Shown here: positions 2,597 to 32,845 of the stretch, piece by piece
How positions within the stretch are numbered: the first letter of the stretch is position 1
Layout of the letters: each line of letters starts with the position of its first letter
Assembly (NCBI GenBank): GCA_017302895.1
Contig: JAFLBV010000004.1
Coordinates: 1 to 64,000 of the forward strand
Direction: 5' to 3'
From: Ignavibacteria bacterium
GTDB lineage: Bacteria; Bacteroidota; Ignavibacteria; Ignavibacteriales; Ignavibacteriaceae
DNA: 64,000 nucleotides
Position numbers and translations under genes: made by a program
The notes under the pieces: model-generated
Databases searched by the model: none
Told to the model about the DNA's origin: nothing
Seen by the model: only the letters and a program-made list of their open reading frames with translations

Positions 2597-3586
2597 ATGA
2601 ACTACAGGAAATTCGGAAACACAGATTTACTCGTTAGCGAAACAGGATTTGGAGCCTGGGGAATTGGTGGTGCGATAAAAATCGGAAACATTCCCATTGG
2701 ATGGGGTGAAACGGACGATGAGACATCACAAAAGGCTCTTCTTAAAGCTCATGATATGGGTGTAAATTTTTATGATACTGCCGATTTTTACGGTTTGGGA
2801 CGGTCAGAAGAATTAATTGGTAAATCGTTCAGGAATGTGAGGGATGTGATTATCGCTACTAAAGTCGGGCATCGTGTGGGAGACGGCGACACCATTCTTC
2901 TTGATTACAGCAAGTCTCACATCATTTCAGCATGTGAAAAAAGTCTTAAAAGACTGCAACGAAACGAAATAGACCTCTATCAGCTCCACTCTGCAAAAGT
3001 AGTCCACCTTGAGCAAGGAGAGTGCATCGAAGCAATGGAGCGCCTAAAGGAACAAGGAAAGATCAGATATTGGGGAATTTCACTGAATACTTTCGATCCC
3101 TACCCCGAGTACAATTTTCTTAAAGATACAAGTCTGTGCAGCAGTTATCAGGTGGTTTTTAACATTATCAACCAAAAGGCTCTCGATCTGATAAAAGATG
3201 CTGAAGAGAACAACTCTGCAGTTATTGCCAGGATGGTCATTCAGTTCGGACTGCTTACCGGGAAAATGAACCCCGACCGGGAATTCGAATCGACCGATCA
3301 CCGGTCATTCAGATTAACGAAGGAATTTATTTCCCTTGTAAACGAAAAACTGAATCCGTTGCACTCTTCAGCAGCAGTTGAGGGGATGAATCCACTGGAA
3401 CTTGCTATGAGTTTTCCATTATGGCAAAAAGGCATTTCCACCATCATCCCCGGCATAAAAACAGAGGGTCAGGCAGTCGAAAACATCAATGCGGTTCAGC
3501 CCTGCAATGAAAGACTGGATAATCTGACAAAACAACTCTACCGGGAAGATCTCTATAAAATTACAGATCTCATGAAAGGTCTCTGA
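2597..3586 (+). CDS. Aldo/keto reductase
   Basis: 329 residues, the normal size for the family, which reduces carbonyl compounds with NADPH on a TIM barrel. The catalytic tetrad is visible: D60 and Y65 (F-Y-D-T-A-D-F-Y-G), K89 (I-A-T-K-V-G) and H131 (Y-Q-L-H-S). No signal peptide, so cytoplasmic. The order of motifs and the C-terminal I-P-G-I-K segment resemble the bacterial aldo/keto reductases often annotated as sugar or L-glyceraldehyde-3-phosphate-type reductases; the substrate cannot be read. The last 17 bases overlap the 3' end of the convergent GH2 gene. It is the only plus-strand gene beside the 24-kb sugar locus, so a link to sugar metabolism is possible but unproven. Confidence 0.9.
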   Translation: MNYRKFGNTDLLVSETGFGAWGIGGAIKIGNIPIGWGETDDETSQKALLKAHDMGVNFYDTADFYGLGRSEELIGKSFRNVRDVIIATKVGHRVGDGDTILLDYSKSHIISACEKSLKRLQRNEIDLYQLHSAKVVHLEQGECIEAMERLKEQGKIRYWGISLNTFDPYPEYNFLKDTSLCSSYQVVFNIINQKALDLIKDAEENNSAVIARMVIQFGLLTGKMNPDREFESTDHRSFRLTKEFISLVNEKLNPLHSSAAVEGMNPLELAMSFPLWQKGISTIIPGIKTEGQAVENINAVQPCNERLDNLTKQLYREDLYKITDLMKGL

Positions 3587-5642
3587 TAGTTACATTAAAG
3601 CTCTCTTTTCGGAGGACCTGATCACCTGAATAGAGGAGCACATCAAAGACAGCGTCACCTTTTGCAGTATCCTGTGGAACAGGAATTTTGTTGAAGTAAT
3701 CCTGTCCAAAATGGAGACTGGAGTTGCTTCCGATAACAAAGTTCTCAATCTCAACAACTGTGGAACCGTTGAGCAACACCTCAATTTTGCAATAGTCATA
3801 CTCCTCATACTTGTCGTTTATTACCCAAATCTCAAAATTGAGCATGCTCCCGGGGAAATATCTATCCTGTCTCAAAAATACCGAAAGGAGGAGCGGATCA
3901 AAAGCTTTCCTGACCGCTTCATACCCTTTTTTGGGAACACCATAATAGTCGATAACTGACCAGCTTATCGATTCCCAGCAATCCATGAAGAAAAACTGAA
4001 ATGCTCCCGTTATTCCTTTCCCTTTTCTCCTTCGGTACTGGTGAATCGCGAATGAAAGCAGGTTTGCCTGATAATCCTGAGAATTTTCCACAAACTCCAT
4101 AAGCGTGCTCCCCGGATCAATGCCGGCAATATTAAAAGTCTGGTCTGGTTGAAAATTGTGATATTGCCATTCCTTCCAGTCATAAGGTGGCTGCACTGAT
4201 TTCAGGAACTTTTCAAGTGACCCGGGAGCAGGGAGAGCTTGTGCTCCGAATTCCGTTACAAGGGGGCCCATTGGTGCTCCGGCATAATGCTCCCATGTTC
4301 CCCAGTACCAGCCGTCATAAGGGTGCTCCTCATAATTCGAGGCTCTCCTTATAATTCGTAACGAGTCTTCCTCTTTCACAGCTTTCTCGAGGTGCATATC
4401 AAGGGTTTCCACCTGCTCTCCGGGTTCATTCTGACAGCACCAAAAAGCGATTGAGGGGTGGTTGTAGAATGAGTTTACCATCTCCTTTATCTGTTTTATA
4501 GCCGTTGAAGCGAATTCAGGTGATTCATCATAAGTCCACTGCAAAGGGAAATCCTGCCAGATCATAATACCGGCTTTGTCACATGCTGTGTAAAATTCTT
4601 TTCGAGTAATGTGGGCGTGAACCCTGACTATGTTAATGTTTGCATTTTTAATCAGTTCCACCATCCCGTCTATCCTTTCTACCGAGAGAGAGGAGAGAAG
4701 TTGTTCAGGAATCACATTTGTACCCCTGAGAAACAATTCCTTCCCGTTAATATAGAACCGTTTGTCTTTATCGAGTTCAACTCTTCTGATGCCGAAATGC
4801 TCCCTGTAGATTTCTTCATTTCCGTAGTAGAGCACCAGTTCGTGCAGATTCTGCTCCCCAATATCCCAGGGGTACCAAAGCTGAGGATTTGATATCTTTG
4901 TAATCAGTGAAATCTTGTTAACTCCGTGAGAGAAGACGGGATTTCGCTTTATCTCAATCACTTCCCAGTGGGGTGTTATTATAACAGCTTTTAGTTCATC
5001 TTTTTTTACTCCCCCGTCTCCGGCAAGAAGTTTTAACTTGATGTTCAGTCCGCATTCTGTTTCATTATAAAATTCATAACTGACTTTCACTCTTGCGGGA
5101 ACGACCCCCGGAGTAATTATCATGGAAACCGAATTCCATATACCACCGGTGTTTGCGTTTTGTCCCTTCTCCATATCCCATCCACCGGGTCTGCAGTCAT
5201 GGTGATTAAGCACCCCCTTTATCAATCTCTTTTTCAGAGGCCATACCTCACCCGGTTCCTCATGCGGGGATGAAACTTTCACGATGAGCAAATTCTTCCC
5301 GATATGTGGAACACTTTTCGGCAATTCAATATAAAATCCTGCAAAGTAACCCTCATGTCTTCCGCAAAACGCTCCGTTGAAGTAAACTTCACAAAAGTAA
5401 TCGACTCCCTCAAATCTTAAAAATACGGAGTTGCCAGCGGTTAATTTTTCTATCTCCACTTCCCGGCTGTACCAAACTGTGCCGTTGAAGTTTCTTAATC
5501 CGTGGAGTTCCCAGTTCGAAGGGAGTTCAGCCTGTGCGATGTTTACTCCTGAGAAAAAGCCGGCAGATACTTCTTCCAAAGTCTTTTGAGAATGTTCATC
5601 GGTTATAAACTGCCATTGTCCGCTTAAGTCAATCTTTTTCAT
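3570..5642 (-). CDS. Glycoside hydrolase family 2 enzyme (beta-mannosidase/beta-galactosidase-like)
   Basis: 690 residues with no signal peptide (starts M-K-K-I-D-L-S-G-Q-W), so cytoplasmic. The GH2 layout is visible: an N-terminal jelly-roll sugar-binding domain (about 1-180), an Ig-like domain (about 185-290) and a TIM barrel (about 290-590) with a short beta tail. The family acid/base Glu is in Q-N-E-P-G-E (about residue 406) and the likely nucleophile Glu in V-T-E-F-G-A-Q-A (about 463). GH2 retaining enzymes release terminal beta-linked galactose, mannose, glucuronate or glucose; the E-F-G-A-Q-A-L-P context leans toward the beta-mannosidase side, but specificity is not readable. Last gene of the minus-strand sugar locus, nine bases after the GH144-like lipoprotein gene. 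It probably finishes oligosaccharides in the cytoplasm. Confidence 0.85.
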   Translation of the reverse strand: MKKIDLSGQWQFITDEHSQKTLEEVSAGFFSGVNIAQAELPSNWELHGLRNFNGTVWYSREVEIEKLTAGNSVFLRFEGVDYFCEVYFNGAFCGRHEGYFAGFYIELPKSVPHIGKNLLIVKVSSPHEEPGEVWPLKKRLIKGVLNHHDCRPGGWDMEKGQNANTGGIWNSVSMIITPGVVPARVKVSYEFYNETECGLNIKLKLLAGDGGVKKDELKAVIITPHWEVIEIKRNPVFSHGVNKISLITKISNPQLWYPWDIGEQNLHELVLYYGNEEIYREHFGIRRVELDKDKRFYINGKELFLRGTNVIPEQLLSSLSVERIDGMVELIKNANINIVRVHAHITRKEFYTACDKAGIMIWQDFPLQWTYDESPEFASTAIKQIKEMVNSFYNHPSIAFWCCQNEPGEQVETLDMHLEKAVKEEDSLRIIRRASNYEEHPYDGWYWGTWEHYAGAPMGPLVTEFGAQALPAPGSLEKFLKSVQPPYDWKEWQYHNFQPDQTFNIAGIDPGSTLMEFVENSQDYQANLLSFAIHQYRRRKGKGITGAFQFFFMDCWESISWSVIDYYGVPKKGYEAVRKAFDPLLLSVFLRQDRYFPGSMLNFEIWVINDKYEEYDYCKIEVLLNGSTVVEIENFVIGSNSSLHFGQDYFNKIPVPQDTAKGDAVFDVLLYSGDQVLRKESFNVTIRDLS

Positions 5643-5651
5643 TGTAATTCC

Positions 5652-7034
5652 TTATCTCGTGAAACCAAGATTTTCAAGTCCTTTTTGAACAACAGGATCT
5701 TTCATAAAATACTCCCATACAAAGTCGTTTTTGTAGTTTTCGATCATCAGTATTATCGGTCCTTGATCAATACCGATACAATCCTGTGCCACCCAACCTG
5801 CAGTGGGATTGAATGCGTCCTGAAAGCCATATTTCCCCCAAAGCCCCGAACTGCCGTATTTATACTTCATGTTCATGAGGGTGGGAATTGTAATCTCCGG
5901 AGCGAATGGAATCGATCCACCTGCGGCTGTGGGAGCAATGGTTCCGTCGTCGTTCCAGTCCATACCGGGCATACTGAATCCCCGGGCTGAATAATCGATA
6001 AACTTGTATCCATTTTTGTTGTATTTTTCACCGGGTCCGTCACAGGCGGTAAGGCCCCAGGTGAACTCATCGAATCCGACCCATTTTCTGGGATTTTCCT
6101 TGCCAAATATCTGCTGGACATATGTAGCCCTGCGGGTATTCTCCCAGTAGTCGATCCCTTTTTCCCCCGTTTTGCTGTCAAAAATACCTCTGAAATCAAG
6201 GAAGAGATGAGAATACTGATGCCCGAAGAGTGGCGGAAATATGAAATGACCAAGTCCCGGATATGGAGTCCCCCACTTGTAATCCCTCAACCAGCGGTCA
6301 TAGGTTCTTCCGTAATCTTTTGAATTGGAGCCGGCAGCAATTACAAAAAGAACAATTGCCTCGTTGTACCCCCACCAGCAATGATCAATCAATTCGCTTT
6401 TTTCCGGATGCCAGCCCATACTTAAACCATTGTGGTAATCACTTTTAGGATTGTTGATTGTGAAGAAATCCCATTCAGCCCTCTCCAGGATTTTTGTGAC
6501 TCCTTCCCGGATAGCACGGTGAGTTTCATTGTCACCGCTGTAGTAGTTTCGTGCGAATATCAACCCGGCAAAAAGCAGCCCTGTATCGATCGTCGACAAT
6601 TCACATTTCCACTCCCTTTTCCCCTTTTTCATATCGACGAAGTGATAATAAAAACCTTTGTAACCCGTGGCGTCAACTTCCGCACTCTGAACACTTCCCA
6701 GAAGAAAATTGATCAGATTGAGAGTGACCTTTGCCGCAAACTCTTTTGTTATCCATCCCTTCTCAGCACCAATAGCCCATACAGGCACTGCAAACCCGGT
6801 GGAAGCCATACTTGCCGGTGACCAGTCTGCTGAACGGTCTTTTACCAGTCCGTTTTCAGGATTCATCTCATGAATAAAATATTGAAATGTCTCCCTCTGA
6901 AGTGAATCGAGGAAATCCTTTTGCACCTGAGGAATGCTCTGATATTTTACATACTTCTCAGGTAAATAGCTGTTTTGAGCTATTGAGCAGCCGCCAAAAA
7001 GGAAAACAAGGGGTAATAAGAGTAATAATCTCAT
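5652..7034 (-). CDS. GH144-like (PF10091 'glycoamylase') lipoprotein
   Basis: 460 residues. The N-terminus is a lipoprotein signal (hydrophobic run ending L-F-G-G-C, Cys16), so it should be anchored in a membrane facing the periplasm or surface. The rest is one (alpha/alpha)6-barrel domain of the PF10091 type, with the hallmark stretch D-W-N-D-D-G-T-I-A-P-T-A-A-G-G-S and a C-terminal I-D-Q-G-P-I-I-L-M-I-E-N-Y. Family GH144 comprises endo-beta-1,2-glucanases; other PF10091 members are uncharacterised, so substrate is inference. It is a paralogue of the catalytic domain in the protein at 20364-22787 (same T-I-A-P-T-A-A and Q-G-P-I motifs). A strong terminator (7061-7086) lies between it and the PorV-like gene, so it and GH2 may be a separate or read-through unit. 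Confidence 0.8.
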   Translation of the reverse strand: MRLLLLLPLVFLFGGCSIAQNSYLPEKYVKYQSIPQVQKDFLDSLQRETFQYFIHEMNPENGLVKDRSADWSPASMASTGFAVPVWAIGAEKGWITKEFAAKVTLNLINFLLGSVQSAEVDATGYKGFYYHFVDMKKGKREWKCELSTIDTGLLFAGLIFARNYYSGDNETHRAIREGVTKILERAEWDFFTINNPKSDYHNGLSMGWHPEKSELIDHCWWGYNEAIVLFVIAAGSNSKDYGRTYDRWLRDYKWGTPYPGLGHFIFPPLFGHQYSHLFLDFRGIFDSKTGEKGIDYWENTRRATYVQQIFGKENPRKWVGFDEFTWGLTACDGPGEKYNKNGYKFIDYSARGFSMPGMDWNDDGTIAPTAAGGSIPFAPEITIPTLMNMKYKYGSSGLWGKYGFQDAFNPTAGWVAQDCIGIDQGPIILMIENYKNDFVWEYFMKDPVVQKGLENLGFTR

Positions 7035-7111: not shown

Positions 7112-8125
7112 TCAGAAACCGACACTGAAAGTGAATCGGTGAGCCTGATCCAGCCTTCCATAGTCAGCCCAGGCATAGTCGAACCTGACTGTGTACCCTC
7201 CCGAAATCGATGCTTTCACACCACCTCCGAGGACGGCACCACCTTCGAGAGAAGGAAGAAAAAGGTTTCTGTAACCGCCTCTCAGGTACACCAAATCGAG
7301 TATCTGAAACTCACCACCAAGGCTTATGCTTTCATTATTGTCATTAGGATGAAAACCATCGACTGAGAGGATAAGTTTATAGTCCTTGGTAAATTTAACA
7401 GGATATGACAAACCAACTCTGAAGGCTGTAGGAAGACCCCACTCATCCATCCTGAGTTCGGCCGGTAACTGATCGTTGTCTCCGTATTTCTTCGGGTCGA
7501 AATCAAAATTGACATAAGCATCCCTTCCCTCATATTTGGCTCTCGGACCAAAATTCATGAGAGCGGCTCCAATCGTAAGACCGTCAACCTCGACCTGGTA
7601 CTGTACACCGATGTTGAGGGCGAAACCGGAAAGATTGGAATGCCAGATCGATTCCTGATAATAGGTCATCTGAAGTCCGACAGAAACACGGTCTGTGAGC
7701 ATAATACCATACCCGAGACCGAGTGCGAAATTGGTGACGCTGAACCTCTCACCCGTACCGAGTGGTTGTTCAACCGTTCTCACATCCATCTCACCCGAGT
7801 TTAGAGAGGTCATCTGAAGTGCCAATGTACCAAGTCCCTGAATCGGAACAGCAGCAACCGCATAGTTGTAGTTGATGTCTGCAATCCATTTGTTGTAGGT
7901 AAACTGGGCATCAAGCTTGTCAAGTCTCCCGAGACTGGCAGGATTGTAGTAGAGCGAAGTTGCCTCACCATAAAGTGCCGTACCTGCATTTCCCAAAGCG
8001 GCGGCCCTGGCGCTCGGTTCTATCTTCAGAAATTGTGCTATTGTGGTTCCCGCCTTGCTCTGCGAATAAAGCAGGACAGAGGAAAGAACCAAAAAGAACG
8101 CGGTGATAATTGTTATCTTTTTCAT
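7112..8125 (-). CDS. PorV/PorQ-family outer-membrane beta-barrel protein
   Basis: 337 residues with a signal peptide (M-K-K-I-T-I-I-T-A-F-F ending about residue 24). The mature start shows the PorV/PorQ signature: F-L-K-I-E-P-S-A-R-A-A-A-L-G-N-A-G-T, then S-L-Y-Y-N-P-A-S-L-G. The remainder is alternating strands ending in an aromatic residue (F-S-V-G-F), as for outer-membrane barrels. In type IX secretion PorV is the shuttle that carries CTD substrates from the translocon to the attachment machinery. This copy lies in a sugar locus, directly after a TonB receptor and a large exported protein (spacing 11 bases), so it may be a locus-dedicated paralogue rather than the housekeeping PorV. It ends before a strong terminator. 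Confidence 0.85.
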   Translation of the reverse strand: MKKITIITAFFLVLSSVLLYSQSKAGTTIAQFLKIEPSARAAALGNAGTALYGEATSLYYNPASLGRLDKLDAQFTYNKWIADINYNYAVAAVPIQGLGTLALQMTSLNSGEMDVRTVEQPLGTGERFSVTNFALGLGYGIMLTDRVSVGLQMTYYQESIWHSNLSGFALNIGVQYQVEVDGLTIGAALMNFGPRAKYEGRDAYVNFDFDPKKYGDNDQLPAELRMDEWGLPTAFRVGLSYPVKFTKDYKLILSVDGFHPNDNNESISLGGEFQILDLVYLRGGYRNLFLPSLEGGAVLGGGVKASISGGYTVRFDYAWADYGRLDQAHRFTFSVGF

Positions 8126-8136
8126 TTTAGTCTCTC

Positions 8137-11100
8137 CTACTTCACAATTGCGAATTTACCGGTGTGTACACCCGCCTGACCGGCATCAACATGGAAGATA
8201 TACAAACCCGGTGCTGCCTCAAGGTTATCCTTCGTACGAAGATCCCAGGGTACATAGCCGTTCAAGATATTTCCATCGTGTTGAAGTGTCTGAACAAGTT
8301 CACCCGTCACTGTATAAATTCTTATGGTGCAGTTTGGAGGGAGATTCCTGAATTCAAGTTTTCTCTCGCCTCTTCCCTGAACGCCAAATCTTTGGGGTTC
8401 GAAAGATGCTGCAGCTACATAAGGATTAGGAACAACATACGGTTTGTTGTTAAACTGACTGTTTGCCAGGTTTTGATCAAACTTTTGGCCAATCGATCTG
8501 AAAGTAAATTCATCCTGACTGCCGAGTGGTTTGTTGATCACAAAACGGTACTCGTCACCTTTTGACGGCGGCACAAGGGGTCCTCTTTGCCACTGTCCAA
8601 CTGTATCAAGTTTGATGTTCCAGGTCGGAATTGCAACCGTCGGAGCTTTTGTCTGATAAGTCTGAATCTCGATATAGTCGTCGGGTTGATCGAGGGTCTT
8701 AGAATTGTTTTTATCGTAGAACTTGAAATTCAGTTTCGACTCGGTACCGTCGGATTTCACAGCGGTAATTCTAAACATTGCAGGCTTCGCCTGGAATCCC
8801 GGGAATGCCTTGGAAGTGTCGAGAACCTGGTCGCTGAATTCGATTCTCAAGTTTTCGGGGTAGTTGGGTCGTTTTAGGTTGATCGGTCTTACGGCACTGT
8901 ATCTGACAGTAAGAGAAGCATTTGTAGGACTTCCCGCTACAAATCCTGTCTTCGTGGAATCGACTTTAAAAGTATCAATGGAGGTAACCACGGGGAGCAG
9001 ACCAAGAGCTGTCGGACCCGAGCCCTCGCCCTTAAAGTCGTAACCGAGTCTAAAGAGAGTATCGCCTGAAGTCTCATCAATAAATCGATACATCTCTGCT
9101 TTTACACTGTCATCCTGACCAAAAAATGTCAGTTTGAAAAGATGATTATCCGGCACTTCAGCAGGGTTCACAACTTTTACCGATACACTTCCGAAACCAT
9201 TTCCCTGGCTGTGAACTATGTTCTCGGTTGTTGCCGGAACATATCCCATGCTGTTTGGATTCGGCACCACCTCTATAACATTCTTCGGTAACACTGTTCC
9301 ACCACGAAGTGTCTGAGTAACTGAATAAGCATTTTCAGAGGGATACAATTCCAAAGAATCTGAACCTTTGTCATAAGCAACTACTGCATAGTAGTACTTC
9401 TGACCGTTAACGGCTGTTGTGTCGCGGAAAGTATGCCTGATGCCTGTGTCATCACCAAGATAGTAAGCAACACCTTTAACTGTGGTTTTCGAGTAGCCAA
9501 GCACCTTGTCCTTTAAATCAAATTGTGCAAGAGCTCTTCCGAACGGCATCGGCTCAGTTCCTGTTCCACTGTAAATGGTCTTAATGTCATTAAAGTTTGG
9601 ATCGGTACTTCTGTAAATCTTGTAACCTTCGAAATCATTTTCACTGGTAACAGGATCGAAAGCCCTTTCAGCAGCTTCATCCCATGAGAGTTCGACATAA
9701 CCGTCTCCGGCGAATCCCGTAAGAGTTGGAGTTGGAGGCGGAACCGCAAACTGATAGTTGGCTTTGTAGATTTTACCGACGATCTTCACATTGTTCTTGA
9801 GTTCCCTTAGATCGCGTCCAAAAGCAAGAGCAAGACTGAATCTTTCTGTCTTTCCGGCAGGAAGTTTGAAAGGACCTGAAGCGAATAAAAATCCGATATT
9901 CAGGTTGGTTCTGGTAATCGCTGCATCAAAGGAAGAATCGGGATCGGAGAAATTTTTGTAGAGTCTCTCGGGCCAGCCTCTGCCATCATCAAAAAAGACG
10001 ATGTTGTCTGTTTGTCCACCACCCGCAGGATCATTGATTCTGTTGAACTTGAATCCGGTCAGGCCAACCTGATCTGATTCATCTATATCAACTTTATCGA
10101 AACCGGGTTCACCATTCGTCGGGATACCATCATTTTCACCGGCATCATTTGTACCAAAAAGACCATCAGCACCGGTATCGTTATACTCACCAACCCAGTC
10201 CATGTCTTCATCACCTGTCCACCACAGACCTCTTTTGAAAGCAGGTCTGTTCTCGATAGGACCGTAGGTTGCCTGAAAATCGGCGAGATTGTAGTTTGAA
10301 GTAGCATAAGAACGGATATTGTCCTGACCTGTAATGAGGGTGCCCGGACCGCTGTCTCGTTTCTCATCCTTAATTCCGTCCTTATCATTATCCTTGCTGT
10401 CATACTGATTTCCGGGTGTTTCGAGGTATGAGTATCCAAGATAACCTGTTGGCCCTTTTACACCGTTTCCGTAGTAATCCCAGGTGTAAACAAGGTTAAT
10501 TCCCTCTTCCTTGGTGAAGTAAGCATTGTCATCGTCAGATTCAGGATATGGATCCTTCCCTTTTCCCGAACCGCCAACACCGGAGTCCATGTAAAGTCCG
10601 AAAATAATATTGTCATTATAGTCGGTAGTACTTTCATTCGTAATGTCATAATGGAAGAAAATTACATCAGACGCCTGCGGGTTGTTCCACTGGAAGCCTC
10701 TTTGCTCAATTCTTAGACCAAGCCCTCTTCTTGTGCGGTCACGACTGTCGGGGTAATAATCCCATGCATCGTAAAAGTTGTCATCCATTACGGTGAAACT
10801 TTCCTGCATTTCGAGTTTTGGTACCTTACCAAAATAGCCGTTCCAGGAACCGCCCCATCCGGGGTCTGTGGCATCATTCATCTTGTCAATCCACTTGTCG
10901 GGCCAGGTTCTCGGGTCGTTCGACATTGCAACAGACCGTCCCACATTTATTGTCGGATCATCCTGGTGATATCCGGGTCTCGGCTCATATCGCATGGTCT
11001 TTCCTGTGAGGGGACTTTGAGTCTGTCTCTCACGGTATCCCGATTGCATCATGTAGGCAACTTTTCCGTTTTCCTGCATAACCTTAGCCAAAACAAAAGG

Positions 11101-11382
11101 TGTAATACCATCGGTATAGTTTTCACCGGAACCTTTTGGAATTTCAACCGAATGGAAAACTGTGAGGTCAACTTTCAACGGATCCGGGGGATAATCGCCA
11201 ACCATTCCATAGTTAAAAAACCGGGTTCTGATGTTGTTAAAGTCGTGCTGCCCCATTCTTTCCGCATCAATTCTGCCCCTCAGTTCCGGGGGAACCTGAG
11301 CAAAAAGAACAACAGGTGACAAAATCATCAGGAGGACGAAAAAGAACCTTCCCGGTCGAAAGATTTTATTTTTTGAATTCAT
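8137..11382 (-). CDS. Large exported protein paired with a TonB receptor, FlgD/T9SS-like C-terminus
   Basis: About 1081 residues from the ATG at 11382, chosen because a GGAG (plus 11391-11394) sits eight bases upstream; the frame is open to 11406. A signal peptide follows (ends near V-L-F-A-Q). The N-terminal half is rich in aromatic and acidic residues and holds Asp-rich loops resembling calcium-binding turns (D-S-K-D-N-D-K-D-G-I-K-D about residues 340-350, and another near 415-440). A fibronectin III-like stretch follows (T-P-T-L-T-G-F-A-G-D-G-Y-V-E-L-S-W, near 565). The end (G-L-Y-I-F-H-V-D-A-G ... G-K-F-A-I-V-K) resembles the FlgD-like/T9SS sorting module but lacks the N-Y-P-N-P-F-N-P motif. 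The TonB receptor gene ends two bases before this reading frame opens, and the PorV-like gene follows 11 bases later. It may be the surface partner of the receptor, in the place of SusD. No catalytic domain recognised. Confidence 0.7.
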   Translation of the reverse strand: MNSKNKIFRPGRFFFVLLMILSPVVLFAQVPPELRGRIDAERMGQHDFNNIRTRFFNYGMVGDYPPDPLKVDLTVFHSVEIPKGSGENYTDGITPFVLAKVMQENGKVAYMMQSGYRERQTQSPLTGKTMRYEPRPGYHQDDPTINVGRSVAMSNDPRTWPDKWIDKMNDATDPGWGGSWNGYFGKVPKLEMQESFTVMDDNFYDAWDYYPDSRDRTRRGLGLRIEQRGFQWNNPQASDVIFFHYDITNESTTDYNDNIIFGLYMDSGVGGSGKGKDPYPESDDDNAYFTKEEGINLVYTWDYYGNGVKGPTGYLGYSYLETPGNQYDSKDNDKDGIKDEKRDSGPGTLITGQDNIRSYATSNYNLADFQATYGPIENRPAFKRGLWWTGDEDMDWVGEYNDTGADGLFGTNDAGENDGIPTNGEPGFDKVDIDESDQVGLTGFKFNRINDPAGGGQTDNIVFFDDGRGWPERLYKNFSDPDSSFDAAITRTNLNIGFLFASGPFKLPAGKTERFSLALAFGRDLRELKNNVKIVGKIYKANYQFAVPPPTPTLTGFAGDGYVELSWDEAAERAFDPVTSENDFEGYKIYRSTDPNFNDIKTIYSGTGTEPMPFGRALAQFDLKDKVLGYSKTTVKGVAYYLGDDTGIRHTFRDTTAVNGQKYYYAVVAYDKGSDSLELYPSENAYSVTQTLRGGTVLPKNVIEVVPNPNSMGYVPATTENIVHSQGNGFGSVSVKVVNPAEVPDNHLFKLTFFGQDDSVKAEMYRFIDETSGDTLFRLGYDFKGEGSGPTALGLLPVVTSIDTFKVDSTKTGFVAGSPTNASLTVRYSAVRPINLKRPNYPENLRIEFSDQVLDTSKAFPGFQAKPAMFRITAVKSDGTESKLNFKFYDKNNSKTLDQPDDYIEIQTYQTKAPTVAIPTWNIKLDTVGQWQRGPLVPPSKGDEYRFVINKPLGSQDEFTFRSIGQKFDQNLANSQFNNKPYVVPNPYVAAASFEPQRFGVQGRGERKLEFRNLPPNCTIRIYTVTGELVQTLQHDGNILNGYVPWDLRTKDNLEAAPGLYIFHVDAGQAGVHTGKFAIVK

Positions 11383-11408
11383 ATTAAGATCTCCACTTTT
11401 CCGCATAA

Positions 11409-14057
11409 TTATTTACTCCTGAAAGAGATGCCAATCTCAATTTTTCTCGGCTCATAAAATCTGCCCGGGTTAAGAAGTGCTGCCCTGTCGGCAAATGAAT
11501 TTACAGAGTAATCAGGACTTCCGGTGTTCGCGAAGACAAATCCATTCACGAAATTTGTACTGAGAACATTGGTCATTCTTGCGAAAACACTAAGATTTAT
11601 GAAGGAAAGTTCGAAGTATTTTTCCGCCCTGATATCGAGAATTGCATAGCCGTCTTTCCTTCCGGAGTTCGTTTCGAGGTCTGCATTGAAGCCTGTCCCG
11701 ATTGCCGGGGTGTATGGCATACCGCTTCCAAAACGGAGAATCGCAGATATGGTATAATCGTTCGGCTGTAAATAAACGGCAGTGAAATTAAGTGTGTGTC
11801 TCTGATCCCATCCGAAGGGGATATCTCTTGGTCTGGGGTCTTTCCCGGCAGCAGCTCTGTTGGCGGTCTCATACGGATCACTTGCATTTCCCCGGGCATA
11901 CTGCATGGTATAATCAACTGATGCTGTAATCGGACCAAGTTTCCTCATCTCAAACGCGAGTGTGAAACCGTAGACCGAACCAAAATCGATGTTGGTCAGT
12001 CTTGGGTAGTCAGCAGCAGCATAGGTCGAAATAAATTCAGCGCCAAGAAGGTCTCTAATATCCTTGTAAAATACCGTCAATTCACCGCCAAAAATCTGAC
12101 TGAAAGCCTGCTTCAATCCACCTTCATACTGAACGGTGAGCTGAGGTCTCAAATCAGGATTTCCCATTGTGCCATATGAAATGCCGCCATCCTGCAAATC
12201 CTTCAAGATGTTGTAGTTTGAGTTCGAGTAGAGGTCAGCAAGACCCGGCATCTGATAGAAGTGTCCATAGGCAAAATAAACAGATGACATGGCAGTAAGA
12301 GGGAAACTGAAACCAAGTCTCGGTGCCAGCGCAAATTTTACTGAAGTTGGTTTAAGAACTGACTTTGGTGCACCTGAAATGGAGTTGGCGGGATTCGAAA
12401 GATCGCTCGGCACTTCAGCGTTTGCATCATAATACTCTGCTCTCAATCCGGCTCTGACCACCAAATCTCCCAACTCAATCCTGTCCTGTAGGTACAGTGC
12501 ATATTGTTTCGGGAAGTACTGATTTATTCTCGGATCGGTGATGAGTACAGGCTGGTCTTTTGCAACGAGTGTTGATACCCCGTTTACAATGGTCATCTGC
12601 AGGAATCCCGGCGAACCAAACTGGATGTCAGATATTTGTCCTTCGACACCAGCCTCGAGGAGGTTGTGCCTGTTAATCTGCCAGGTGAAATCAGCTTTGG
12701 CAATTATACTGTTCGTCTTTTGGATATATCTTCCAAGGTCAACACCCTGAACTATTGCACCAAGTTCGTAATTGTTGTCACTCTTGAACTCACCTGCAGC
12801 TATGTATCCGGGATCAAAAACTGATTCGTATTTGTATGACTTGTAGTCGAAGTAATTCTGCCGTACACTCACCTTATAAAACATTTCCGAAGAGAGGGTG
12901 TGCGTAAAATCGACACCATGCGAAACAGAAACTGTGTTGTTTGGTTTGTTCCCGTCGGGATTCAGACGGAGACCAAAATTGTAGTAGTATGCTTCGATCG
13001 AGTTCATTATAGCCTGATAGCTCAGATTCATGTTCTTGATTGAAGTGTTGGTCAACTTGAATTGCCCGCTCCACTCTCTTGTGGTGTTCATCGGTACAAG
13101 TTCGTTGTCTCCTGTGGGCCTGAAGATTTTGTTTTCGAGATCATTTTTATCAGTTGGCATAAATCTTCTCGTTCCATAGAGGTATCCGTCACCGGCATAT
13201 CTTCTTCCTGAAACAAGGAAAGTTGTCTGGGGTAAACCTGTTGGACCTGAAAGTGTCAACTGATAATTCTGTATGCCAAGAGGACGGAGTTTATCAGCAT
13301 CAGGATATCTCTGATTGTCAGTGGTATAAAAACTTCCACCGTAAAACTCGCCTGACCACTCAAAATTATCATCGCCCGACCTTAATACAGCATTCACAAC
13401 GCCCGACATTGCCTGTCCGTATTTTGCATCGAATGTTCCGGAGATAATCTGTACCTCCTGCAACACCGATTTATCGAGTAGAAGTGTAGCTGCATTATTG
13501 AACGGGTTATTAATCGAAACACCATCCACCTGATACTGCACCTCACCAAGTCTTCCGCCTCTGAAATGACCATCCACAACACCTGCCTGAAGGTTCACAA
13601 TCTGTCCCAGATCCTGAACAGGCAAAAGTTCAATTTCATCCTTCGAAACATTTACTACGGAAGAGGTTTGATTAAACTCAACGAGTGGTTTTTCTGCGGT
13701 AACGACAACTGTTTCTGTGGTAAAGGATGTACTCTGAAGTTTTACATCAATTTTTGTGGTTTGATCGGTTGAAACCGCAATAGCTTCAACTTTTTTCGAC
13801 TGAAAGCCGGTGTATCTAAACTCCACAGAGTAGGTTCCGGCACGAAGATTAAGGATGGTATAATAGCCGTCGAAGTCTGTGACAGCTCCTTTGTTGGTGC
13901 TTTCAACGATAACAGTCGCACCGATGAGTGGCTGACCGTTTTCATCAGTCACCCTGCCAGCAAGTTTTCCCGCCGTTTGAGCATTTAACTGCCCGGAAAT
14001 CAGAACAATAAAAATCAGCAGAATTACCGGAAGAAATTTGTAGCCGGTTTTTTTCAT
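11409..14057 (-). CDS. TonB-dependent receptor with N-terminal carboxypeptidase-regulatory-like domain
   Basis: 882 residues. Signal peptide (to about residue 27, Q-L-N-A-Q), then a CarboxypepD_reg-like beta-sandwich (about 30-115, G-R-V-T-D-E-N-G-Q-P-L-I-G-A-T-V). The plug follows (about 120-230, containing V-Q-Y-Q-V-D-G-V-S-I-N-N-P), then a 22-strand-type barrel ending I-E-I-G-I-S-F-R-S-K. This is the SusC-like layout, an energised outer-membrane channel for oligosaccharides, though no SusD gene lies next to it. It is preceded by a -7-like element (14091-14098) and a perfect hairpin (14113-14142) and followed two bases later by the frame of the large exported protein. In this locus it should import products made by the surface GH144-like enzyme. 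Confidence 0.9.
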   Translation of the reverse strand: MKKTGYKFLPVILLIFIVLISGQLNAQTAGKLAGRVTDENGQPLIGATVIVESTNKGAVTDFDGYYTILNLRAGTYSVEFRYTGFQSKKVEAIAVSTDQTTKIDVKLQSTSFTTETVVVTAEKPLVEFNQTSSVVNVSKDEIELLPVQDLGQIVNLQAGVVDGHFRGGRLGEVQYQVDGVSINNPFNNAATLLLDKSVLQEVQIISGTFDAKYGQAMSGVVNAVLRSGDDNFEWSGEFYGGSFYTTDNQRYPDADKLRPLGIQNYQLTLSGPTGLPQTTFLVSGRRYAGDGYLYGTRRFMPTDKNDLENKIFRPTGDNELVPMNTTREWSGQFKLTNTSIKNMNLSYQAIMNSIEAYYYNFGLRLNPDGNKPNNTVSVSHGVDFTHTLSSEMFYKVSVRQNYFDYKSYKYESVFDPGYIAAGEFKSDNNYELGAIVQGVDLGRYIQKTNSIIAKADFTWQINRHNLLEAGVEGQISDIQFGSPGFLQMTIVNGVSTLVAKDQPVLITDPRINQYFPKQYALYLQDRIELGDLVVRAGLRAEYYDANAEVPSDLSNPANSISGAPKSVLKPTSVKFALAPRLGFSFPLTAMSSVYFAYGHFYQMPGLADLYSNSNYNILKDLQDGGISYGTMGNPDLRPQLTVQYEGGLKQAFSQIFGGELTVFYKDIRDLLGAEFISTYAAADYPRLTNIDFGSVYGFTLAFEMRKLGPITASVDYTMQYARGNASDPYETANRAAAGKDPRPRDIPFGWDQRHTLNFTAVYLQPNDYTISAILRFGSGMPYTPAIGTGFNADLETNSGRKDGYAILDIRAEKYFELSFINLSVFARMTNVLSTNFVNGFVFANTGSPDYSVNSFADRAALLNPGRFYEPRKIEIGISFRSK

Positions 14058-14112: not shown

Positions 14113-14142
14113 GTGCAGAGGAAGAAAAATCTTCCTCTGCAC
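14113..14142. promoter_or_regulatory. Perfect 12-bp hairpin between the CBM9-like gene and the TonB receptor
   Basis: GTGCAGAGGAAG is followed after AAAAAT by its exact complement CTTCCTCTGCAC. No T run follows on either strand, so it is not a standard terminator. It may be an mRNA-stabilising or processing hairpin that sets receptor level relative to upstream genes, or an operator just upstream of the promoter. Confidence 0.5.
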
Positions 14143-14171: not shown

Positions 14172-16058
14172 CTACTTCATCAAAATCATTTTGCCTGAAG
14201 CTGACGAAATGCCGCCATTCGATGCATTTTTAAAGTTGACCTTATAGAGATATACACCCGAGGTAAGACCTCTTGCATCAAAGTTGATTTCCTGCGCACC
14301 GGCAATCGCATTGATCATTTGCCTGCTGACAAGCTGACCAAGTGAATTGTAAACCAGCACTTCAGCCTGACCTGACTGAGGAGCGGAAAACTTGATTTTG
14401 GTTGAAGGATTAAAAGGATTCGGGTAGTTTCCATAAAGTTCAAGCGATGAAGGTATTCCTGTAAATTCATCCTCGACATCAACTACACCATCGTTGCTGA
14501 GGTAAACCCATGCAAGGGCAGGTCCGCCGGCATGCTCACGCATAAACCAGGTTCTTGTTCCATAGTTCAATGCAGGATCGGTGAATGAATCACCATCATA
14601 AAGTACTGACCCAAAGAACAGACTTCTGTCGCCGAGATCCTGAGGATAACCCAGAAGTCCTGTTAATTGAATTTTTCCTTCAATTACATAGCCTTCATCA
14701 ACATCGTTGTTGTTGTTTATGGTCGATGCGCCTTTTAACCTGAAGGCATAGGATGATTGTGTGGAATCGAGAAGTGTCTGCATATAATCACCGGGTTTGA
14801 GAGCACCTGTCGAATCGAATGTGAGCCTGAGCATCCTTGCTTCAAGTGCATTGTCTGATGCACGGGAATCACGATCCATAAGTACAGTTGCGAAACCGTC
14901 GACGGCATCAAACAAACTGGTTCCCTGAATAAGCTGATCGTTGAAATCAGCACCAAAATAGAGGAATCCGTCTCTGTGGAAATATTTGATTTTTACATAT
15001 CCCGGATCTACAACAGGAGGCCTGCTTCCTGCAACAAGTTCGGGCTGATACTGTCCACTCTGGTAGGCACCAATTCCGGGATATGCTGCTCTGGCAAGTG
15101 TATCGTCCCATCCGATTACCAGTTCCTGAGCGCCTCTCCAGACTTCTTCGTCAAGGTTGCCATCGATAACGGGAGCAGGTTTGTTGGAACCGTTGTAGAA
15201 GGTGTATTCAACAGGAGCGAGTGGAGGGTTGGTGGTGTTTACAGTTACATCCGGTTTTGCATAGATTCTGGCAGCATTTGCACCATTTGCATTTCCCCAC
15301 GGATACTGATAGTATGCTCTTGCTGTATTGATCCTCGATGGAGTATTCCCGTAAACCCAGTCGCAATCCCATATCGAGAAGTTTAACTGGATGATGTCGC
15401 CGGTAGATCGTGTTATATCGTAACCGAGCACCGCAACATCTATTCTCATCTCTACTTCCCAGCCCTGATCAGGAGTGGTATCATCGCAAGATACACCACC
15501 GATGGTTCTGTAACCGGCATCCCATGCAGCTCTCTGTTCGGGAGTTCTGGTAGTGTCAGAGAAGTTGCCAAATCTGCCGATAAAACGGGGTGGTGTTCCG
15601 GGCTGCAGATATTGAGGCACATTCAGGTACCACCATGTGTAGAAAAATTCTGTAGCGGGGAGGGGTCTGTTTGGACTTGCCTTGTCGCGAATGTTCATAA
15701 GGATTCCGTCCCATCTTGCCCAGTCAGCAATTCCACCAACTGAAGAGTCGGGCATCTTGAATCCAAGATAGAGATAGTGGTCTTTAACGAGGAATTTTAC
15801 CGTTGCTCTGATAGGATCAGTAATGGCATTCTCGTTGAATTCCGCTGTCCAACCGCTGGTTGGCAGAGCGCCCGGCTGACCATAGATAACCTGTACCGAA
15901 TCGGCTTTTGCCCAGTCGGCTTCATTCATGTTGCCATCAAGGGTAATGGTCCCCAAAGCGACCTTTCCCCAGAGGGCATCACTGCGCACCACATTTTGCG
16001 CGTTTGAAAAATTGACTGAAAATAGAAGAATGAACAAAGCTGTTATTACTCGTTTCAT
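14172..16058 (-). CDS. Exported CBM9-like protein with T9SS sorting tail
   Basis: 628 residues. Signal peptide to about residue 20 (N-F-S-N-A-Q). Two domains each start with the carbohydrate-binding-family-9-like motif: L-D-G-N-M-N-E-A-D-W (about 38-47) and I-D-G-N-L-D-E-E-V-W (about 298). A type IX sorting tail begins Y-G-N-Y-P-N-P-F-N-P (about 545) and ends K-M-I-L-M-K. No catalytic domain is visible, so it probably acts as a surface glycan-binding protein, the functional counterpart of SusE/F-type lipoproteins. Located between lacI and the TonB receptor gene. It is related in plan to the protein at 25337-27304 but not a close copy. Confidence 0.8.
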   Translation of the reverse strand: MKRVITALFILLFSVNFSNAQNVVRSDALWGKVALGTITLDGNMNEADWAKADSVQVIYGQPGALPTSGWTAEFNENAITDPIRATVKFLVKDHYLYLGFKMPDSSVGGIADWARWDGILMNIRDKASPNRPLPATEFFYTWWYLNVPQYLQPGTPPRFIGRFGNFSDTTRTPEQRAAWDAGYRTIGGVSCDDTTPDQGWEVEMRIDVAVLGYDITRSTGDIIQLNFSIWDCDWVYGNTPSRINTARAYYQYPWGNANGANAARIYAKPDVTVNTTNPPLAPVEYTFYNGSNKPAPVIDGNLDEEVWRGAQELVIGWDDTLARAAYPGIGAYQSGQYQPELVAGSRPPVVDPGYVKIKYFHRDGFLYFGADFNDQLIQGTSLFDAVDGFATVLMDRDSRASDNALEARMLRLTFDSTGALKPGDYMQTLLDSTQSSYAFRLKGASTINNNNDVDEGYVIEGKIQLTGLLGYPQDLGDRSLFFGSVLYDGDSFTDPALNYGTRTWFMREHAGGPALAWVYLSNDGVVDVEDEFTGIPSSLELYGNYPNPFNPSTKIKFSAPQSGQAEVLVYNSLGQLVSRQMINAIAGAQEINFDARGLTSGVYLYKVNFKNASNGGISSASGKMILMK

Positions 16059-16103: not shown

Positions 16104-17138
16104 TTAAAATAATGGTGACGGATTGGCACCCGAACAGCCGCATGAATTGCCGATTATCAGCCCTGTCGAAAGTTTTTCATGGTAGGCATCCAACGGATTT
16201 ACTTCGCCGTTTATTACTTTTAGTAAATACCTTACCGCCTTTCCACCCAGCTCTTCAATAGGAGCGTGAACTGTAGTCAGTCTTGGACTCAAGAGTCTGC
16301 TCAGATAGATGTCATCAAATCCTGTTACGGCTATATCATCCGGAATTGCAACCTTCAGAATCTTTGCTCCCTCGTAGACCCCAAGAGCCATCATGTCGTT
16401 TGCCGCAAAAATCGCCTGCGGTCTCTCGGCAATGGTCATCAATCTCATGAAACCATAGTAACCGGAGCGGACAGTGAAATCACCGTCGACTATCCAACTG
16501 GGATTAATGTTGATTCCGTGCTTCAGCAGCGTCTCTGAATAACCCAAAAACCTCTCTTCAGCGTCGCAGTTGTCTTTCGGTCCTTTAATCATGGCAATTC
16601 TTTCATACCCGTGCTCGAGAAGATGCTCGATATTGGCAACTGTTCCCTGATAATTGTCGATACTTATGCTGATTGCCTCATCGATATCGTTCAGAGAATT
16701 TATGAGAACCACTGGTCTGCGGCTCTTCCCGATAATCTCGGGCACTTCCTTGTGGATTTGCGGAGCCATCATTATGACTCCGTCCACTCTACCACTCGAC
16801 ATGAAGTCGATCAGTGTTTCCACTGCGTCTCTTTGGCTGTGAGAGCTCGCAACAATTATAAATTTGTTCCACCTGTGAGCCTCTTCGTCTATTCCATGAA
16901 TGATGTCGGTAAAAAACTCTCCGGCAATATCTGGAATGATCACTCCAATCGTATCTGTCATCTGTGTCGAAAGTCCGCGGGCGAGAGGACTCGGCTTGTA
17001 ATCAATCTCCTCAGCGATCCTCATAATCTTCGACTTGGTAGCATCCTTTATCAATTTGCTGTTATTAAAAGCTCTCGATACTGTTGCTATCGACACCCCT
17101 GCCAATTTTGCGACTTCATGGATGTTTTTTCTGGTCAT
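16104..17138 (-). CDS. LacI-family transcriptional regulator
   Basis: 344 residues. The N-terminal helix-turn-helix is canonical (N-I-H-E-V-A-K-L-A-G-V-S-I-A-T-V-S-R-A-F-N, residues 5-25), with the hinge helix P-L-A-R-G-L about 53-58. A periplasmic-binding-protein-like effector domain follows (about 62-335), containing F-A-A-N-D-M-M-A-L-G and V-T-G-F-D-D. The C-terminus carries an unusual Cys pair (S-C-G-C-S). Such proteins repress or activate sugar operons and respond to a sugar or sugar phosphate. A consensus LacI operator lies 26 bases upstream (17164-17177), so autoregulation is likely; a second lies before the first gene of the locus (27338-27351). It sits between the ABC permeases and the CBM9/TonB genes. 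Confidence 0.92.
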   Translation of the reverse strand: MTRKNIHEVAKLAGVSIATVSRAFNNSKLIKDATKSKIMRIAEEIDYKPSPLARGLSTQMTDTIGVIIPDIAGEFFTDIIHGIDEEAHRWNKFIIVASSHSQRDAVETLIDFMSSGRVDGVIMMAPQIHKEVPEIIGKSRRPVVLINSLNDIDEAISISIDNYQGTVANIEHLLEHGYERIAMIKGPKDNCDAEERFLGYSETLLKHGININPSWIVDGDFTVRSGYYGFMRLMTIAERPQAIFAANDMMALGVYEGAKILKVAIPDDIAVTGFDDIYLSRLLSPRLTTVHAPIEELGGKAVRYLLKVINGEVNPLDAYHEKLSTGLIIGNSCGCSGANPSPLF

Positions 17139-17240: not shown

Positions 17241-18050
17241 TTACTCTTTTACTCCACCCATCATTATCCCCTTAATGTAATACTTTTGTAAAGCAAGAAA
17301 CATTATCATAACCGGCAGGATTGTAATTACACTTCCCGCCATCATCAGTTCAGGATCTTTGGTATGTTCCCCCATCAGATTGGCAAGAGCAACCGGCAGG
17401 GTGTACATGTCGCTGTCATTCAATACAATAAGAGGCCAGAGGAAATCATTCCATGTCCCCATAAATGTAAATATTGCAAGAGTAACCATCACAGGTGCAG
17501 CAAGCGGAACGATGATTTTATAATATATCTGAAAATCTGTGGCACCGTCAATTCGTGCTGACTCGAGGAGACTGTCCGGAATCGCCATTACATACTGTCT
17601 GATGAGGAAAATACCAAACACATTCGCGAGTCCCGGTATCAAAATTGCCATGTATGTGTTCAAAAACCCGAGTTCCTTGAGCATAAGGAATAATGGCAGC
17701 ATCGTAACCTGTGAAGGAATAACCATTGAACTAAGCAGCAGTTTGAATATGGCATCCCTCCCTGCAAATCTGTACTTTGCAAAGGCAAATCCCGCCATCG
17801 AATTAAATACTAATGAAACAACCGTAACCATCGTCGAAATAATCAGACTGTTCAGAAGATTCCTCGAAACATCGAGTCTCGAAAACAATGTTTCATATTG
17901 CGTCAGCGAAAAAATGTCGGGAATAAACCTCGGCGGGAAAACCGAGGCGTGTCCATCCAGCATAAAAGATGCGGATAGCATCCAAATAAACGGAGCGAGG
18001 GTAAGCAATCCCGTAAAAATCAGAAACGCATAAATTAAATATTTCTTCAC
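17241..18050 (-). CDS. ABC sugar transporter permease (MalG/CUT1 type)
   Basis: 269 residues with six predicted membrane segments, the size of CUT1 inner permeases. The conserved cytoplasmic EAA loop that docks the ATPase is present (E-S-A-R-I-D-G-A-T-D-F-Q-I-Y-Y-K-I-I-V-P, about residues 163-182), and the N-terminus has the M-L-S-A-S-F segment of MalG-like proteins. It pairs with the permease at 18052-18921, which ends one base upstream, and the binding protein at 19063-20367. No ATPase gene is in the window, so a shared MsmX/UgpC-like ATPase elsewhere would be needed. Expected cargo is a short oligosaccharide from the surrounding locus. Confidence 0.92.
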   Translation of the reverse strand: MKKYLIYAFLIFTGLLTLAPFIWMLSASFMLDGHASVFPPRFIPDIFSLTQYETLFSRLDVSRNLLNSLIISTMVTVVSLVFNSMAGFAFAKYRFAGRDAIFKLLLSSMVIPSQVTMLPLFLMLKELGFLNTYMAILIPGLANVFGIFLIRQYVMAIPDSLLESARIDGATDFQIYYKIIVPLAAPVMVTLAIFTFMGTWNDFLWPLIVLNDSDMYTLPVALANLMGEHTKDPELMMAGSVITILPVMIMFLALQKYYIKGIMMGGVKE

Positions 18051-18051
18051 T

Positions 18052-18921
18052 TCAGGCCTCCCTTCTCTTCTGAACCCACATCTGAATCATTGTACCAATC
18101 AGAATGATCACAAACAGCACAAACGCAATAGCAGAGGAATATCCCATATTCCACCAGCGGAATCCCTCCTGATACATGTAAAGGACAATACTCAGTGTGC
18201 TGTCCAGCGGTCCCCCCTGTGTCATGATGTAGGGCTCTGCGAACAACTGGAAATAGCCAATCATTGTAATAATTGTTATGAATACAGTAGTTGGCGCAAG
18301 CATGGGGAGAGTAATTTTTATAAATCTTTGCCAGCCGTTTGCCCCTTCAATCTCGGCGGCTTCGTACAGTTCCTCGGGTATGTTCTGTAAGCCGGCTATG
18401 AAAATTATCATGTTGTATCCGAAATTTTTCCAGATCGAGAGAAGTATAATGGATGGCATTGACCAGTTGGGATCTCCAAGCCAGTCGATTTTCCCGATTC
18501 CCAAAAAGCTCAAACCGTAATTCAGCAATCCAAATTCCGGATGATAAATAAACCGCCACACTATCGAAACAGCTACAAGAGTGGTAACCACCGGCATAAA
18601 ATATACAAGTCTGAATATCCCTTTGAACTTGACAAGTTTCGAGTTCAGCATCATCGCTGCACCAAGAGAAACAGCAATCGAGAGGGGTCCCGAAATAACT
18701 ACAAAAAAGAGGGTGTTCTTCAGAGCAGTCCAAAACAATGCATTATCAAAAAGTTTGATGTAATTATCGAATGCTGTGAATCTGAATTTGCTGTAATTGC
18801 CGATGGCATAGATATCAAAATCAGTAAAACTGATTATGAATGCACTTATCACAGGGATAAAAAAGAATACAAATATCGCTGTAAGTGCCGGTGCCAAAAA
18901 GAAATATGCAGCTTTTTTCAT
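18052..18921 (-). CDS. ABC sugar transporter permease (MalF/UgpA-like, CUT1 type)
   Basis: 289 residues, six membrane segments, EAA loop E-A-A-E-I-E-G-A-N-G-W-Q-R-F-I-K-I-T-L-P (about 189-208). The N-terminus F-F-L-A-P-A-L and the late segment I-M-T-Q-G-G-P-L-D-S-T are typical of MalF-like sugar permeases. The gene ends one base before its partner permease starts, so the two are translated together. It is 141 bases after the binding-protein gene; that gap is filled with short repeats. Confidence 0.92.
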   Translation of the reverse strand: MKKAAYFFLAPALTAIFVFFFIPVISAFIISFTDFDIYAIGNYSKFRFTAFDNYIKLFDNALFWTALKNTLFFVVISGPLSIAVSLGAAMMLNSKLVKFKGIFRLVYFMPVVTTLVAVSIVWRFIYHPEFGLLNYGLSFLGIGKIDWLGDPNWSMPSIILLSIWKNFGYNMIIFIAGLQNIPEELYEAAEIEGANGWQRFIKITLPMLAPTTVFITIITMIGYFQLFAEPYIMTQGGPLDSTLSIVLYMYQEGFRWWNMGYSSAIAFVLFVIILIGTMIQMWVQKRREA

Positions 18922-18934
18922 TCGTCTTTTTTTT

Positions 18935-18963
18935 GAGTACTTGAGTAACTCGAGTACTTGAGT
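18935..18963. repeat. Direct repeat of GAGTACTTGAGT
   Basis: A 12-base unit GAGTACTTGAGT occurs at 18935-18946 and again at 18952-18963, separated by AACTC; the middle forms the palindrome ACTCGAGT. It lies just upstream of the permease start in the 141-base gap after the binding-protein gene. It resembles low-complexity intergenic repeats; function unknown. Confidence 0.6.
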
Positions 18964-19039
18964 TTATTTAATCCTAAATTTCAAAACTTTATTAGAGCAC
19001 AATTCATAAGTCATAATTCAAAACTAATAACTAAAAATC

Positions 19040-19077
19040 AGCTCATAGTTCATAGATCATAGCTAATAGCTAAGAAT
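19040..19077. repeat. Dispersed intergenic repeat, copy 1 (AGCTCATAGTTC...ATAGCTAATAGCTAA)
   Basis: An AT-rich word beginning AGCTCATAGTTC and ending ATAGCTAATAGCTAAGAAT. A second copy lies at 34861-34900 with the same two ends. In both places it covers the stop codon of a minus-strand gene, here that of the ABC binding protein (19063-19065). Confidence 0.65.
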
Positions 19078-27568: not shown

Positions 27569-27630
27569 TTTTCCGGACGGGATTTACATAAGTGAATATT
27601 CTTTTCCCCAATTTATTATCAGGTCTCCCG

Positions 27631-31790: not shown

Positions 31791-31856
31791 ACGGAAAACA
31801 TCATCGAAACCGACATCTTCCCGGATTATTTTCGAAATTTCCCCGGTACCAGATAT

Positions 31857-32840: not shown

Positions 32841-32845
32841 GTTTT

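Follow-up and report, generated by a model that had tools for sequence, protein, structure and literature searches.

A conserved trio of TonB receptor, large exported protein and PorV-like barrel as a candidate sugar uptake module in an Ignavibacteria genome

The window analyzed here is a 64,000-nucleotide (nt) stretch of DNA from an Ignavibacteria bacterium (assembly GCA_017302895.1, contig JAFLBV010000004.1, positions 1 to 64,000). It contains three minus-strand genes arranged head to tail that encode a TonB-dependent receptor, a large exported protein and an outer membrane barrel related to PorV, a protein of the type IX secretion system (T9SS). The trio and the signal that follows it are:

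11409-14057, minus strand: TonB receptor, 882 amino acids
8137-11406 (1089 amino acids) or 8137-11382 (1081 amino acids, second ATG), minus strand: large exported protein
7112-8125, minus strand: PorV/PorQ-family barrel, 337 amino acids
7087-7065, minus strand: intrinsic terminator 3′ of the PorV-like gene, a 9-pair stem with 8 G-C pairs, followed by a U-run

An earlier note on this DNA had described three tightly spaced genes ending at a strong terminator, and coordinates and stem agree with that description. The receptor gene and the large-protein gene are separated by 2 or 26 nt, depending on which of the two candidate starts is chosen (both are preceded by a GGAG-like ribosome site), and 11 nt separate the latter from the barrel gene. 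The large exported protein of 1081 residues mentioned in the note is also present; its description has to be refined, since the protein carries a T9SS-like C-terminal domain. As for the unit ending at the terminator, the terminator is real, but a gene for a GH144-like enzyme (5652-7034) begins 31 nt past it, and a gene of this kind is conserved beside closely related modules, so that the functional locus exceeds the coordinates of the trio.

The receptor comprises a CarboxypepD_reg domain, a plug (PF07715) and a TonB_dep_Rec barrel (PF00593), the last two scoring over cut-off. A TonB-box-like motif, ETVVVTA, is found at residue 115, and such a motif is conserved across 70 aligned receptors. 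With plug, barrel and TonB box all in place, the protein qualifies as a TonB-dependent receptor. It does not belong to the SusC family (TIGR04056; 79 bits vs a cut-off of 368).

The large protein shows no match in Pfam, even at E = 1, and no NCBIfam family. It carries a Sec signal, and its AlphaFold model (mean predicted local distance difference test [pLDDT] score, 87; predicted template modelling [pTM] score, 0.78) suggests a beta-supersandwich (approximately residues 33-545), FN3/Ig-like domains and, after these, a C-terminal beta-sandwich, the T9SS-type C-terminal domain (approximately 984-1081). In the model, the supersandwich is similar (Z 15-20 across about 240-280 residues) to the N-domains found in GH94, GH116 and GH15 enzymes and comes without the catalytic barrel of these enzymes. 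This likeness of the modelled fold to carbohydrate enzymes does not establish function. PorZ and PorU are among the Foldseek matches of the model. A relationship to SusD was considered and not retained: there is no sequence match, and SusD is absent among the fold matches listed. The window protein has no lipobox, and a lipobox-like motif occurs in 2 of 70 relatives.

The tail of the large protein is its best-conserved region: mean identity of relatives to the window protein is 60% here and 30-50% in the other regions. Where copies diverge most, the tail is what chiefly remains recognisable. The models for type A T9SS tails (TIGR04183/PF18962) match the protein encoded next to the trio (14172-16058) and fail to match the large protein, which rules out that the latter is an ordinary type A cargo. 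When a profile of the module tails was compared with one built from 50 of this genome's ordinary type A tails, the two profiles separated the two sets; three divergent copies from this genome that had been held out (L040, L042, L043) scored 63-81 bits with the module profile vs 14-22 bits with the type A profile. The module tail is nonetheless related to type A domains (hhalign probability 90.6%, E 1.3e-6, 59 columns). The sole match of the tail in a PDB sequence search was the PorU domain, a weak one (E 0.24). A lysine at the C-terminus and another close to it are conserved in more than 94% of relatives. They match the near-terminal lysine of type A tails, which is almost invariant and functionally important (PMC10994853). 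On these comparisons, the view that the tail is a distinct T9SS-type subtype, related to type A yet separate from it, is well supported.

The third gene had been called a PorV paralogue, and this holds by sequence and by fold. The barrel exceeds the PorV/PorQ family cut-off (NF033709; 188 bits vs 90) and stays under the equivalog cut-offs for PorV (NF033710; 62 of 250 bits) and PorQ (NF033711; 96 of 220 bits); nor does it score as the PorV2 equivalog. That it could be the genome's own PorV or PorQ was rejected, as separate genes exist for both: a PorV (L035; 248 bits, just under cut-off, beside PorU) and a PorQ (L041; 262 bits). A PorV2-like protein (L045) is encoded as well, so that the module barrels are additional paralogues. 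The AlphaFold model has 14 strands (mean pLDDT, 89) and is closest to PorV of the substrate-bound translocon (Z 33-34 to 8gl6/6h3i, 280-286 residues). FadL (Z 30) and BamG (Z 26) come next, and BamG holds a surface protein, for which it is thought not to act as a shuttle (PMC12578637); the barrel might be a FadL- or BamG-like subunit of a receptor complex, an assembly platform or small-molecule channel with no part in carrying cargo. We regard this as decidedly improbable, given that PorV is the best match by profile as well as by fold, that the family is PorV/PorQ, that BamG scores only marginally by sequence (29 bits vs 250), and that the neighbouring gene encodes a T9SS-type tail. Grouping with unrelated barrels, which would have spoken against the earlier assignment, was not seen.

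The same gene order had been proposed as something to look for in other genomes. The receptor gene lies directly upstream and the barrel gene directly downstream of the large-protein gene in 71 of 71 public-genome relatives that have sequence on both sides (69 identified by script; L063 and L077 from coordinates, the script having missed them only because over-extended open reading frames overlap the neighbour). Median gaps are 4 and 12 nt. These relatives belong to Ignavibacteriota, Calditrichota, Eisenbacteria, Krumholzibacteriota, KSB1, Marinimicrobia, Rhodothermota, Gemmatimonadota and WOR-3/Stahlbacteria. They include the cultured Rhodothermus marinus DSM 4252, where a plasmid copy (RMAR_RS14110-14120) is annotated as TonB receptor, hypothetical protein and PorV/PorQ family protein. 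The conservation of gene order is far beyond chance. Nor is the order unique to the genome of the window, which itself has seven such trios (the window copy, L036, L038, L039, L040, L042 and L043) and 12 proteins over the PorV-family cut-off, plus a few weaker ones.

Tree distances among receptor, large protein and barrel correlate with r of 0.80-0.92 (0 of 2000 shuffles as high), the receptor-large protein pair giving 0.92; within the seven copies of this genome, r is 0.51-0.76 (values at least as high in 13 to 184 of 5040 permutations, counting comparisons with the tail). Match counts for PorV-family and large proteins rise together across 61 genomes of the class (Spearman 0.89; the sample has related, non-independent genomes, and a match may be a fragment). 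In a tree with PorV, PorQ and PorV2, the barrels of window type group in a 100/100 clade spanning phyla, and two modules of one metagenome-assembled genome (L049, L096) have their barrels in different 100/100 clades. Long branches in this tree leave no clear common clade of all module barrels set apart from PorV, PorQ and PorV2. That the trio is one conserved, co-inherited module is well supported by these sequence comparisons.

These data bear on a rather unlikely alternative, in which the barrel would be a one-way shuttle and the large protein, cleaved by PorU and then tied to lipopolysaccharide or released, would act as a free binding protein or adhesin, with the receptor merely co-regulated. 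Cleavage and anchoring of this kind are the norm for type A cargos (PMC10202324), the module tail is related to theirs, and type B cargos do have dedicated carriers with no receptor as partner (PMC12618676). However, the receptor is coupled to the large protein as strictly as the barrel is (r 0.92; adjacency in 71 of 71), and the tail constitutes a separate subtype despite the at least 150 ordinary type A tails in the genome.

Not all arrangements in this genome are trios. In one rearranged copy (L037 2-9010), a gene with a large-protein-type tail is accompanied by a T9SS cargo, a lipoprotein (518 amino acids, FN3), a receptor and a PorV-like barrel; this module may use a lipid-anchored partner instead. 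Elsewhere (L044 4123-7640), two tandem PorV-family genes follow a gene for a 531-residue protein with a T9SS-like tail and have no adjoining receptor, a possible receptor-free variant.

Around the window copy is a glycan locus that has an ATP-binding cassette (ABC) importer and a GH94 phosphorylase. Its genes outside the trio include:

3570-5642, minus strand: GH2 family enzyme, outer locus
5652-7034, minus strand: secreted glycoamylase-like enzyme (PF10091, GH144-like)
14172-16058, minus strand: 628-residue exported protein with an ordinary type A T9SS tail
16104-17138, minus strand: LacI-family regulator, upstream in 19 of 26 close relatives
17241-20367, minus strand: ABC sugar importer (permeases, 17241-18050 and 18052-18921; solute-binding protein, 19063-20367)
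20364-22787, minus strand: second PF10091 (GH144-like) enzyme, with a type A T9SS tail
22787-25225, minus strand: further locus gene
25337-27304, minus strand: CBM9-like protein with a type A T9SS tail

The GH144-like protein next to the terminator is homologous to endo-beta-1,2-glucanases (matches 5gzh and XCC2207). Having both such a homologue and a GH94 phosphorylase, the locus can be classed as one for beta-1,2-glucan, the substrate itself being putative. The window copy occupies the place that SusCD would have in a beta-1,2-glucan-type locus. A GH144-like or GH94-like gene follows the module in 26 of 26 window-type relatives and in 3 of 28 modules of other types; the 628-residue T9SS protein adjoins the receptor upstream in 32 of 33 window-type relatives and in 0 of 29 of the others. 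The LacI-family protein probably regulates the locus. Around the other copies in this genome the neighbours differ (GH16/malectin, CBM48/CBM20, peptidase S51 or GHL10 proteins), as would be expected if each substrate had an uptake system of its own.

Could the receptor, instead of importing nutrients, help to export the large protein or to assemble it at the surface? The TonB-dependent transporter Oar of Myxococcus is reported to be needed for PopC secretion (PMC6434023). Here, however, a T9SS route is present and the large protein has a T9SS-type signal; moreover, the glycan locus holds an ABC importer and a GH94 phosphorylase, with GH144- or GH94-like genes in 26 of 26 close relatives. An Oar-like role is, in our judgment, very improbable.

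A few other features of the window were recorded. A 13-pair inverted repeat with no minus-strand U-run (14113-14142) separates the gene for the 628-residue T9SS protein from the receptor gene and may function in transcript trimming or attenuation. Positions 27592-30810 encode a 1072-residue protein with an F5/8 type C domain, a weak amylo-glucosidase match and no solved relative; homologues occur near several window-type modules, making it a candidate new carbohydrate enzyme. An apparent restriction-modification system (30912-34597) consists of a pair of D12-class adenine methyltransferase genes and, after them, a gene for an AlwI-type restriction endonuclease. Near the contig end, a gene for a 490-residue protein (639-2111) matches phage terminase large-subunit families PF04466 and PF03237 and is possibly a prophage remnant.

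A T9SS is present in this organism, whose genome encodes SprA, PorU, PorV and PorQ. Within its 3.98 Mb, at least 150 cargo tails of T9SS type A were counted (150 of 244 candidates scored; there may be more). In the earlier note, the large protein was a possible surface lid of the receptor, put there by its own PorV-like carrier. Delivery by such a carrier is well motivated by the T9SS-type C-terminal domain and the adjacent PorV-family barrel, and the lid is a conjecture; the barrel could equally be a permanent anchor of the PorQ/PorZ kind. The note had further seen in the trio a possible alternative to SusCD. In favor of this, neither SusD_RagB nor a SusC (TIGR04056) over cut-off was found in the genome, and the module is placed where a glycan locus would have SusCD; the large protein, on the other hand, is not SusD-like. 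The trio does not itself qualify as a SusCD pair, its receptor not being SusC and the partner having no SusD match and not being a lipoprotein. According to a published account, susCD was scarcely detected in the carbohydrate clusters of Ignavibacteriales and was absent from those of Kapabacteria (PMC10576277).

Taken together, we consider it somewhat probable that the trio works in TonB-dependent uptake, with a surface subunit that the T9SS exports as the client of a PorV-like barrel of its own, and that is likely held there. The receptor would be the energised import channel and the large protein its cell-surface partner. The latter would cross the inner membrane via Sec and then use its C-terminal domain to leave through SprA, the outer membrane channel of the T9SS. 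The adjacent barrel would then collect the exported protein by binding its tail, and would most likely keep the C-terminal domain bound, much as PorQ does with PorZ and PorV with PorU. The large protein would thereby be fixed next to the receptor by the barrel and not, like SusD, by a lipid. In the window copy, the surface domain would probably capture beta-1,2-glucan-type oligosaccharides from the GH144-like enzymes and pass them to the receptor. The predicted export route, the tail type and the pairing of barrel with large protein rest on homology and gene order; recognition of the tail by the adjacent barrel, its retention, receptor contact, the lid or capture role and the substrate are what we infer from them. 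The C-terminal domain is retained in PorQ-PorZ, and retention by cognate barrels has been generalised as a hypothesis (PMC10202324).

Several observations weigh against this proposal. Contact among receptor, large protein and barrel would be an extrapolation from models of single chains. The ordinary PorV might recognise the tail, with the adjacent barrel doing something else, and the choice between retention and PorU cleavage is not readable from the sequence. The passenger part is only weakly alike in 3 of the 7 copies of this genome (L040, L042, L043), so that a lid fold common to all copies is not established. The across-genome tree correlations contain shared species history, whereas those among the copies of one genome do not. 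Finally, SusD matches are also present in 13 of 45 module-bearing genomes of the class; SusD_RagB is absent from 32 of the 45 genomes with the large protein but also from 12 of the 16 that have no such protein. That SusD is missing from most module-less genomes too makes this genome-by-genome comparison a weak test of replacement and speaks against a simple replacement of SusCD.

More tentatively, and with a little less than even confidence, the trio might typify a widespread class of TonB machines in SusCD-less bacteria of the Fibrobacteres-Chlorobi-Bacteroidetes (FCB) group, in which the capture subunit is delivered and held by the T9SS via a private PorV-like barrel, in place of the SusD lipid anchor; barrel and tail would be constant and the passenger would vary with the substrate. 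None of the open-access papers searched was found to describe the trio: its known parts, PorV-family barrel, type A-like tail and TonB receptor, are in an arrangement not found described. The module provides a concrete, multi-copy candidate for the uptake of large sugars in lineages where susCD is scarce or absent, and ties a large protein family outside Pfam and NCBIfam to a testable function. Each of the many PorV-family barrels travels with one client, and the client tails form their own subtype. This challenges the published view that a single PorV serves all type A substrates of the T9SS (PMC12618676). The trio also suits testing of the idea, raised for PorZ/PorQ, that cognate PorV-like barrels shield tails from cleavage (PMC10202324).

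Among known systems, PorQ-PorZ and PorV-PorU likewise combine a PorV/PorQ-family barrel with a T9SS-exported multidomain surface protein whose tail stays bound (PMC10202324). The trio differs in adding a TonB receptor, in occurring in many copies per genome and in the beta-supersandwich body of its large protein, which is unlike PorZ and PorU. The type B cargos of Flavobacterium johnsoniae and their PorP/SprF carriers share with it the client gene placed directly before a dedicated carrier and the several pairs per genome (PMC12618676); in the trio, however, the carrier is of the PorV/PorQ family, the tail is type A-like and a TonB receptor precedes the pair. In the BamG-BamH pair of the Bacteroidota beta-barrel assembly machinery (BAM) complex, a FadL-like barrel similarly holds a large surface protein (PMC12578637), but BamH is a lipoprotein, the complex serves barrel assembly and the BamG match of the trio barrel is the marginal one given above. 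Ignavibacterium album has a similar beta-1,2-glucan cluster (IALB_1177-1187), with uptake tentatively assigned to a TonB transporter (PMC8861115); the large protein and the PorV-like barrel go unmentioned in the available part of that account, the two clusters being compared by description only. SusC/SusD, lastly, resembles the trio in joining a TonB receptor to a co-encoded exported protein, in its place in glycan loci, in its several paralogues and in its varied neighbouring enzymes. Unlike it, the trio has a receptor that is not SusC by score, a beta-rich partner without a lipobox and a PorV-like barrel gene that is always present.

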